Of a stretch of 47,090 nt of DNA, positions 24,929 through 26,962 are shown piece by piece. The stretch comes from Pseudomonadota bacterium (GTDB taxonomy: Bacteria > Desulfobacterota > Desulfovibrionia > Desulfovibrionales > Desulfovibrionaceae): NCBI GenBank assembly GCA_018817515.1, contig JAHIUD010000112.1, positions 1-47,090 on the forward strand, written 5' to 3'. A program made the translations under genes and the position numbers. Under the pieces are notes generated by a model that was given only the letters and a program-made list of their open reading frames with translations, was not told where the DNA came from and did no database searches. How positions within the stretch are numbered: the stretch's first letter is position 1; the number at the start of each line of letters is the position of its first letter.

Positions 24929-25022
24929 GGAGAGGTGGCCGAGTCGGCCGAAGGCGCTCGCCTGCTAAGCGGGTATGGGCCTTAAAAGCCCATCGAGGGT
25001 TCAAATCCCTCCCTCTCCGCCA
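24929..25022 (+). tRNA. tRNA-Ser (anticodon GCT)
   Basis: Class II tRNA of 94 bases: acceptor GGAGAGG/CCTCTCC, anticodon stem CTCGC/GCGGG around CTGCTAA (anticodon GCT), a long variable arm TATGGGCCTTAAAAGCCCAT, T-arm GAGGGTTCAAATCCCTC, discriminator G and encoded CCA. The last 14 bases of this region (25011-25024) recur at 26909-26922. Confidence 0.97.
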
Positions 25023-25024
25023 GA
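25011..25024 (+). repeat. Left copy of 14-base tRNA-Ser 3' end repeat (possible attL)
   Basis: CCCTCTCCGCCAGA: the acceptor 3' strand, CCA and two further bases. Identical to 26909-26922. tRNA 3' ends are the usual integration sites of tyrosine-recombinase elements; the tRNA keeps its integrity. Confidence 0.6.
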
Positions 25025-25030
25025 TTTCAA

Positions 25031-25062
25031 GGGGTTACGGTGTCCGCCGTAGCCCCTTTTTT
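25031..25062 (+). terminator. Intrinsic terminator after tRNA-Ser
   Basis: GGGGTTACGG (25031-25040), loop TGTCCG, CCGTAGCCCC (25047-25056), then TTTTTT. A 10-bp stem with one wobble pair, 9 bases after the tRNA CCA. Confidence 0.9.
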
Positions 25063-25417
25063 GCGCCCGAAATCAGGTCGCAAAGCCTCTGTGCGCCCCG
25101 CGTTTGTGCCCTTTGGCGAAAATTGTGACTGCCGCCCATGACTCGGGGGCGACTCACGCCGCTCCCTTTTCCGCCAGGAGCCAAGTCCCTGCCCCTGCAA
25201 GGGTGGCCGGGATTTCTCAATTCCCGGGTCTATCGTGTCCTGCCATCCCGCCTCAAAATTTTGTGTGGCAAATGTAATGCGTTAATATGTAATCATATTA
25301 CGGGATGCTTTGGCCTGCGGCAACTGTGCCTGAACAGTGGATATGGACATCACGAGGTAAATGTGATTTTGCATTTACATGTGGGGTGTAAACGCTTGAA
25401 TCACGGGGTGGGATTCC
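25063..25417 (+). promoter_or_regulatory. Upstream region of the caspase-like gene with two palindromes
   Basis: No gene is visible in these 355 bases. The right half is AT-rich. It holds a perfect palindrome TAATATG-TAAT-CATATTA (25283-25300) and the inverted repeat GTAAATG-N8-CATTTAC (25357-25378), 40 bases before the start codon. Both look like operator sites. A weak promoter TTGTGT (25261-25266) with TAATAT (25283-25288) after 16 bases overlaps the first palindrome. Function is inferred from position only. Confidence 0.45.
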
Positions 25418-26731
25418 ATGTTACGTTATGCCAAAACATTGGGTAGGAGCCACGCTCATTGCATTGCCTTGGCCCTTTTCGCGGCCTTTGTCCTGAGCGG
25501 ATGCGTCCCGTTTTATATCTCTGGTCACACGGATGACTACAGCGACAGCATCACCGGCGTGGGCAGCGGCAATCCGCTTTCCGGGCATACCGACGTCAAG
25601 GTCCATTTCGCCAAGCTGAACATGAACTGTACGGGTGAAACGCAGGATTACGAGCGGGGAAAGGCGCGCGGGTGGCTCCAATGCGAAGATGGGCGCCGTC
25701 TTGAAATTTCCAGCCACCTTGTGTCCATGACCGCAGGCGTTGGAACGGCCCACGACTCCTTCGGAAATACCGGCACGTTCATCTTCGCAACCGATCAGTC
25801 GGCGGTTGAGGCTGAGAATACCCGCAACCTGCAGGAAGTTGCTCGGCGAAATCTGGACGTCGCCAAATTGCGCATCCCGCAAACGGCGTCTTTGAAACCC
25901 GCAGCAAGCCAGGAAACCTCGGGCGGCCCCCTGCCAACGGCCATAACGCCGGTAGCTGAAGCGCCAGGGGCGCCTCCTCCGGCGAAGGAAGCAGTTTCTT
26001 CATCCCAGGCTATGCCGACCAAGAAAACGTTGGTCGAGCCGCATGCCGCGAGACCGCTCGAACGCCGCATCGCCCTGGTCATCGGCAACGGCGCGTACAA
26101 GGAGGGACCGCTCAGGAACCCACCCAATGACGCCCACGACATGGCGGCAATCTTGCGGTCAATGGGCTTCGAGGTCATCGCCCGCGAGAACGCAGGCTTG
26201 GCCCAGATGGAGGCCGCTGTGGATGAGTTCTGGGGCAAGCTCAAGAAGGGCGGTGTCGGGCTGTTCTATTACGCAGGCCATGGGCTGCAGGTGAACGGCC
26301 GCAACTACCTTGTGCCGGTTGATGCGAAAATCCTGGCCGAACAGGACGTCAAGTACAAGTGCATGGACGCTGGATTGGTGCTCGGACGCATGGAGAACGC
26401 AGGCAATGATCTGAACATCATCATCCTGGACGCCTGCCGCTCCAATCCGTTTGCCCGCTCTTGGCGAAGCGCAGACCAGGGCTTGGCCAAGATGGACGCA
26501 CCCAAGGGCGCCCTCATCGCCTATGCCACGGCGCCGGATTCGGTGGCTGCAGACGGCACGGGCAAGAATGGGCTGTACACGGAGAAGCTGCTCAAGGCCA
26601 TGCGCGTGCCAGGCCAGCCAGTGGAGCAGATGTTCAAGCGCGTGCGCGACGAGGTCATGCGTACCACGAAGGATAAGCAGGTGCCGTGGGAGTCAACAAG
26701 CCTGCGCGGTGACTTCTATTTCGTTCCCTAG
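25418..26731 (+). CDS. Caspase-family (peptidase C14) lipoprotein
   Basis: A 437-residue secreted protein. The N-terminus is a lipoprotein signal with lipobox VLSGC (Cys29). Residues about 30-150 form a domain I do not recognise (with LNMNCTGETQDYERGKARGW), followed by a Pro/Ala-rich linker to about 213. The C-terminal caspase-like domain begins RIALVIGNGAYKEGPLRNPP, with His288 in FYYAGHGLQ and Cys340 in IIILDACRSNPF, the catalytic dyad of bacterial orthocaspases, and ends LRGDFYFVP. It should be anchored in the outer membrane or periplasm. The substrate is unknown. It is a single gene between tRNA-Ser and a second copy of the tRNA 3' end, with its own terminator, which suggests cargo of a small integrated element. 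Confidence 0.9.
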   Translation: MLRYAKTLGRSHAHCIALALFAAFVLSGCVPFYISGHTDDYSDSITGVGSGNPLSGHTDVKVHFAKLNMNCTGETQDYERGKARGWLQCEDGRRLEISSHLVSMTAGVGTAHDSFGNTGTFIFATDQSAVEAENTRNLQEVARRNLDVAKLRIPQTASLKPAASQETSGGPLPTAITPVAEAPGAPPPAKEAVSSSQAMPTKKTLVEPHAARPLERRIALVIGNGAYKEGPLRNPPNDAHDMAAILRSMGFEVIARENAGLAQMEAAVDEFWGKLKKGGVGLFYYAGHGLQVNGRNYLVPVDAKILAEQDVKYKCMDAGLVLGRMENAGNDLNIIILDACRSNPFARSWRSADQGLAKMDAPKGALIAYATAPDSVAADGTGKNGLYTEKLLKAMRVPGQPVEQMFKRVRDEVMRTTKDKQVPWESTSLRGDFYFVP

Positions 26732-26908
26732 TGGCCCAAGCACCATGTCCGGCGTTACACGAAGGCCAAGCCGCCCTTGTCCGTTGTGACCGCTACAGCC
26801 GCGTTTGCTCAGGCTCCCGTTGCGCTTGGGTGTGCTGATGTTTCTGGGACCAGGGTCGCCTGTTCAGCGGGCATGTGCTTGAAAGCGCCGCCAGGGGGGG
26901 GGACCACG

Positions 26909-26922
26909 CCCTCTCCGCCAGA
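26909..26922 (+). repeat. Right copy of tRNA-Ser 3' end repeat (possible attR)
   Basis: CCCTCTCCGCCAGA, identical to 25011-25024, followed at once by an intrinsic terminator, just as the intact tRNA is. It looks like the displaced original 3' end of tRNA-Ser. The segment between the two copies is about 1.9 kb. The preceding 175 bases after the caspase gene hold nothing I recognise except a run of G. Confidence 0.55.
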
Positions 26923-26928
26923 ATTCTG

Positions 26929-26962
26929 CCCGGCCCTCACATGGGGGCCGGGATTTCGTTTT
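26929..26962 (+). terminator. Intrinsic terminator after the displaced tRNA end
   Basis: CCCGGCCC (26929-26936), loop TCACATGG, GGGCCGGG (26945-26952), then ATTTCGTTTT. Perfect 8-bp stem, directed rightward. It may end the caspase message and may once have ended tRNA-Ser. It lies 10 bases beyond the stop of the leftward CheW gene. Confidence 0.75.

Follow-up and report, generated by a model that had tools for sequence, protein, structure and literature searches.

The window, a 47,090-nucleotide stretch from a member of the Desulfovibrionaceae (assembly GCA_018817515.1, contig JAHIUD010000112.1), carries a caspase-like gene between two copies of a tRNA-Ser 3' end, and the question is how a single gene of this kind came to lie there and where the segment that holds it begins and ends. 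The sequence-only reading had taken the segment for the trace of site-specific integration at the tRNA. The locus was compared in 15 genomes of the window's genus (G000 being the window's own). Three kinds of flank were found 3' of the tRNA: A, a CAAGGGGTTACGG-type terminator; B, a CCCGG...CCGGG terminator; and C, the left end of an island. A limited literature search, Humidesulfovibrio included, returned no description of the locus. Its features are as follows (window coordinates; 'core' denotes the repeated tRNA end).

24929–25022, + strand: tRNA-Ser(GCT), integration target (ARAGORN; Rfam RF00005)
25011–25024, + strand: core repeat copy 1, tRNA 3' end plus GA (exact CCCTCTCCGCCAGA)
25025–25062, + strand: terminator A, the commonest 3' flank of tRNA-Ser(GCT) in the genus (relatives; fold −22.5 kcal/mol; unflagged by the consensus scan)
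25164–25228, + strand: degenerate core plus degenerate terminator B, proposed left cassette border (HMM, covariance model)
25418–26731, + strand: caspase-like lipoprotein, 437 aa, Peptidase_C14 at residues 216–434 (PF00656, E = 4e-44)
26909–26922, + strand: core repeat copy 2, proposed right cassette border (exact CCCTCTCCGCCAGA)
26923–26969, + strand: terminator B plus conserved flank (consensus scan, HMM, covariance model)
26972–29593, − strand: Cache/CheW-domain protein beyond the array (domain scan)
31473–31955, − strand: 160-aa gene at the far edge of the variable region, common to G005, G012 and G014 (own gene call)

Repeat copies and borders of the caspase segment

The tRNA end does recur 1.9 kb downstream, as had been read from the sequence: the 14-mer CCCTCTCCGCCAGA is present at 25011–25024 and 26909–26922, its only two exact occurrences in the 3.6 Mb assembly. 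Judged by base composition alone, it would turn up within 1.9 kb with a probability of ∼2e-5. Two or more matches to this 14-mer with up to two mismatches occurred in 23 of 100 shuffled windows, and the window has 34 overlapping pairs of exact 14-mers that recur within 2 kb, at 11 places. Since such repeats are not rare in themselves, the repeat alone is weak evidence, and the weight lies on its position at the tRNA end and on the relatives. A short tandem repeat with a 14-base period was also seen at 17650–17682.

A terminator had been proposed after each copy. A hairpin and a T-rich stretch are present 3' of both (folds of −22.5 and −23.1 kcal/mol), but a consensus terminator scan flagged the second only; by the same scan, terminator-like sites are no commoner in the window than in shuffles. 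The caspase-like gene is the sole ORF between the copies with a family match (PF00656), in agreement with the description of a one-gene segment. The region upstream of it, described as AT-rich, has a GC content of 0.50–0.56, but values near 29500–29950 are equally low or lower. No sigma-70-like promoter was found at 24800–27100. Elsewhere in the window, a TPP-riboswitch-like match was seen at 22264–22392 upstream of a Thi4-family gene (score 37.9, below the Rfam gathering score of 54.3).

A profile (HMM) was built from six B modules of relatives, with the window copies left out. It matched the window in two places, 26910–26961 (E = 3.7e-10) and 25168–25224 (E = 2.1e-8); the highest score among 100 first-order shuffles of the window was 12.3 bits, versus 29.9 bits for the weaker module, a value that none of the 100 reached. 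A covariance model was built from eight B-module copies, the window's two included, and 150 candidates per genome were scored. It matched the copy at 25164–25228 with E = 2e-10 (this copy being itself part of the model) and gave ten matches in six of the 15 genomes. Nine of these carry the core and lie at the tRNA, at an island end or in an array; eight of the nine were in the model and the one from G011 was outside it. A match in G013:C3 (E = 1.9e-4) was a terminator without a core and was dropped. A loose core-plus-CCCGG pattern gave 76 matches in the genus versus 33 for the reversed control; eight of the 76 lie at tRNA, island-end or array places, and the others look like chance.

The caspase gene is flanked on both sides by core-plus-B modules, the left core (at 25164) having three mismatches in 14. 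The cassette had been proposed to start at the tRNA end, a border that needs correcting: terminator A, which adjoins the window's tRNA, is the commonest flank in the genus, so that the tRNA is probably not the left border, and the degenerate core plus B at 25164–25228 is a better candidate. Between the modules the scan covered the caspase ORF and a second ORF of 102 aa, which had no match; no recombination, transfer or ICE/IME remnant genes were recognised, and there is no further long ORF on the + strand. The statement that no integrase is left was upheld both for the segment and, as regards relatives of the island recombinase described below, for the window's assembly (95% complete).

Flanks of the tRNA and islands in relatives

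Flank A directly follows the tRNA in seven of the 15 genomes (G000, G003, G004, G006, G007, G008 and G014), B in two (G012 and G013) and C in four (G001, G005, G010 and G011). G009 has a 66-base 3' piece of the tRNA followed by B, where ARAGORN calls no tRNA, and the locus was not found in G002. The island's right end is followed by A in G001 and G010 and by B in G005; the right end in G011, with B, is on a separate contig. Other elements with the window's right end had been suggested as a check, and the terminator of the 26929 type does follow the island right end in G005 and G011. The predicted empty site, in which the tRNA runs straight into this terminator, is present in G012 and G013, but the match extends over only ∼50 bases. 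No right flank directly beyond B is common to the window and the B-junction genomes.

The tRNA-Ser(GCT) gene is an integration hotspot, with a tyrosine-recombinase-bearing island in four of the 15 genomes (loci L068/L069 in G005, L073/L074 in G010 and L075/L076 in G001; ends L071 and L282 in G011). The island is ∼23 kb long in G001, G005 and G010 and has its ends on separate contigs in G011; the island right ends and the tRNA have AATCCCTCCCTCTCCGCCA in common. The island gene adjoining the tRNA encodes a tyrosine-recombinase-like protein of 595 residues (DUF6538, 61 bits), which scored 26.0 bits against Phage_integrase (E = 9e-6), just below the cut-off of 27.1. The G005 island also contains a resolvase-type gene, a GmrSD-type gene and large helicases matching the DpdE (E = 9e-262) and DruE (E = 1e-93) models, and the ∼23 kb island is a candidate defence island, possibly anti-phage. 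Relatives of its recombinase are present in eight of the 15 genomes. Some recombinase relatives (31–35%) adjoin further tRNA-Ser-like sequences (G001:C4, G007:C47, G010:C4 and G012:C6), and the sequences suggest a tRNA-Ser-directed recombinase family. The core-plus-B modules and the hotspot are established, as are the recombinase-bearing islands at this same tRNA in relatives. The proposal of site-specific integration gains from the four islands and the B junctions; its left border probably lies elsewhere, and its empty site is limited to the ∼50 bases.

In G013 a degenerate 3' part of the tRNA, followed by A, lies ∼4.2 kb past the tRNA–B junction, as expected if a B-ended element had pushed the old flank outward. 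In G035, from another genus, a 65-base tRNA piece with an A-like terminator after it is found 13.4 kb past the tRNA. The displaced pieces (L077 in G013, L078 in G009 and L333 in G035) are 65–66 bases long and cores elsewhere 14–22 bases; the longer pieces perhaps stem from another type of crossover within the tRNA. Outside the genus, 25 loci were fetched and 18 were readable by a simple pattern; by eye, about four were A-like, three were B-like and the rest differed. A is therefore probably old, although B-like flanks are present in other genera too. A family search with the covariance model matched 15 of 99 genomes, of which 12 belong to other genera. The three strongest of these (G054, G099 and G071, E = 2e-9 to 9e-8) have B-like CCGGG terminators directly 3' of tRNA-Ser(GCT) and were rejected as modules, being tRNA-Ser(GCT) genes with other CCGGG terminators. 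In most of the weaker matches a tRNA-Ser end was followed by a different hairpin or by a plain terminator, and a second core-like match in G061 looked, by eye, like a second and complete tRNA-Ser gene.

The Der GTPase gene and the tRNA side are common to the 12 relatives with enough upstream DNA, except G009 and the contig-edge G011, and similarity along the DNA upstream of the tRNA gave no clear sign that the nearest relative changes. Between the tRNA side and the gene at 31473, which is at a distance of 2.3–11 kb from the tRNA or from B, lies a stretch that differs among G000, G005, G012 and G014. Window DNA 26970–31470 had no match in the fetched relatives. The Cache/CheW gene is lineage-specific: over most of its length its sole relative in the genus, in G004, is 39% identical. 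A malate synthase gene follows B in both G005 and G012. Metabolic or regulatory genes occupy the region in six relatives (G004, G005, G007, G008, G012 and G013), and the region therefore also changes by other means.

The caspase-like protein and its family

The protein belongs to Peptidase_C14 (PF00656, 151.4 bits against a cut-off of 21.4) and has the His-Cys dyad, with the motifs YYAGHG from residue 284 and LDACR from residue 337; a lipobox (LSGC) was recognised by eye. Both motifs, in a slightly relaxed form, are kept in all 29 related loci examined. The closest solved structures by sequence are those of the MALT1 paracaspase (E = 9.5e-19). The score against the EACC1-associated caspase model of NCBIfam (NF047832) was 61.2 bits, below its cut-off of 140, and the PADLOC 'caspase' model gave a family-level match (E = 6e-11), the sole hint of a defence role. 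The product is predicted to be a caspase-type protease, catalytically intact and anchored in the envelope, and by analogy with its family it may act in stress or cell death. Prokaryotic caspase homologues are reported in high copy numbers in Deltaproteobacteria (PMC3501461). The present protein resembles these Peptidase_C14 homologues in its caspase domain with the His-Cys dyad but differs in its N-terminal 169 residues, which are nearly unique among 119 genomes of the taxonomic family (matching only themselves and, weakly, one other sequence, E = 7e-4).

Caspase-domain genes are present in 14 of the 15 genus genomes, with as many as 13 match rows per genome, in which a few genes count twice. 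Across the genus their domain is conserved and the remainder differs; DNA likeness of the window gene to other caspase genes is limited to the caspase domain (window 26059–26722) or part of it. A tree was calculated for 30 caspase domains, the window's and those of 29 loci taken from 83 match rows. In it the window copy clusters with copies from other places in G014, G005 and G012 (86–87% identity). In G009 the order is tRNA piece, B, a gene encoding a caspase domain plus TPR (615 aa), core-B, 0.66 kb and core-B, and this caspase copy groups with copies in G005 and G002 (89–90%) on another branch than the window's. The two loci suggest, from sequence comparison, separate captures from a resident multi-copy caspase family. 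Caspase loci are mostly not linked to a tRNA: ARAGORN placed a tRNA within 1.5 kb of one of the 29 (a tRNA-Pro), the second tRNA-side case is the G009 locus beside its uncalled tRNA piece, and none was found near the caspase loci in seven longer stretches.

Modules and caspase genes were also sought in viral, phage, plasmid and genome sequences. By eye, none of 18 pattern stretches from viral contigs contained a core-plus-B module, and three viral stretches matching the caspase peptide pattern were not confirmed. Matches in eight phage records all covered the tRNA part only; eight plasmid records gave weak matches, six of them over annotated caspase genes. A scan of genome contigs, covering at least 119 stretches, gave two true modules among the 80 matches listed, both in relatives already used. 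No free or phage-borne core-plus-B module was seen in the 18 viral stretches and the 80 genome stretches listed.

Origin of the segment

The caspase gene is likely to be the single cargo of an integrase-less CIME-like cassette (∼25164 to 26922) within a relic tandem-accretion array; the cassette is most likely small, now immobile, without an integrase and of an already known general kind. CIMEs (1.2–13 kb) and microCIMEs (130–220 bp) are described in tandem accretion arrays in Streptococcus salivarius, CIMEs being decayed elements that derive from ICEs or IMEs by deletion (PMC7563491). The likeness lies in short units between att sites at one target gene, without recombination or transfer genes. 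Att-like repeats are present at both ends (the right core exact, the left with 3/14 mismatches and a matching B module), and autonomous elements lie at the same site in G001, G005, G010 and G011 but not in the window's own assembly. The sizes here are ∼1.75 kb for the cassette and ∼150 bp for the A piece. The units differ from CIMEs in sharing a terminator that adjoins the core, and no ICE or IME was seen at the window site; in S. salivarius the most decayed elements are described as farthest from the target gene, whereas here the degenerate core is the nearer one (PMC7563491).

Dehalococcoides ssrA islands likewise have direct repeats of an RNA-gene 3' end downstream of the gene and tandem units, 15 of which are without an integration module (PMC3146451); those islands use a serine recombinase and tmRNA, whereas a tyrosine-recombinase-like gene and tRNA-Ser are found here. 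Integron cassettes are characterized by attC sites and IntI; the repeats here are copies of the tRNA end. With no integrase recognised in it, and no relative of the island recombinase in the assembly, the segment does not qualify as a prophage or autonomous island.

Under the CIME-like reading, elements would enter by a crossover within the 3' portion of the tRNA, each carrying a tRNA end and a terminator, so that the tRNA would stay intact and terminated. Earlier insertions would have left core-plus-terminator B modules with the caspase gene between two of them, and an island-type recombinase may have acted on the cassette in trans. The cassette is probably immobile now, because its left core has three mismatches in 14 and the assembly contains no recombinase relative. 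Against this reading, the window has A beside its tRNA and the B modules farther out, opposite to the order in G013; since a simple insertion would be expected to displace the older flank A outward, the reading needs an additional step. Also counting against it are the degenerate left core, the lack of a right flank common to the window and the B-junction genomes, the absence of free or phage-borne modules from the stretches read, and the metabolic or regulatory genes at this place in six relatives. Later recombination restoring the tRNA–A junction, or a ∼150-base A-bearing unit, would explain the position of A. B may in part be ordinary inherited flank, given the B-like terminators in other genera and the malate synthase gene after B in G005 and G012.

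The segment could also be an internal-deletion derivative of a larger integrase-bearing island, which overlaps with the CIME-like reading and does not exclude it. This is possible, if rather unlikely: deletion is the published origin of CIMEs (PMC7563491), but no recombinase, resolvase or transfer-gene remnant was recognised between the modules and island end type C is absent from the window.

It is improbable that one element (25025–26922, terminator A included) inserted once at a tRNA running into B. Such tRNA–B junctions do exist in G012 and G013, B lies behind the islands in G005 and G011, and G012 and G005, which are relatively close to the window, have the 31473 gene in common with it. 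The supposed element would, however, begin with the commonest flank of the genus, A, of which there are A-like counterparts in other genera, and it would hold a degenerate core plus B inside.

Still less probably, homologous recombination or rearrangement among tRNA-Ser alleles with different flanks left the cores as scars, as the differing metabolic or regulatory genes after the tRNA in six relatives, the lack of a recombinase relative in the window's assembly and the B-like flanks in other genera would allow, but the recombinase-bearing islands use the same tRNA end in four relatives, the second window core ends at the tRNA 3' end and B follows in both window modules.

Returning to the CIME-like cassette, a wider proposal is the most doubtful made here: that core plus B is the portable end of a family of mostly one-gene, integrase-less cassettes at tRNA-Ser which would obtain their recombinase from passing islands, with caspase genes as a preferred cargo captured independently at least twice.

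Read as a CIME-like cassette, the locus shows how a single caspase-type protease gene that has no integrase of its own can reach a tRNA hotspot, and that insertions there replace the terminator of the tRNA. If caspase cargo is indeed preferred, this would link cell-death-type proteases with a site that in relatives receives a helicase/nuclease-type island, possibly anti-phage.
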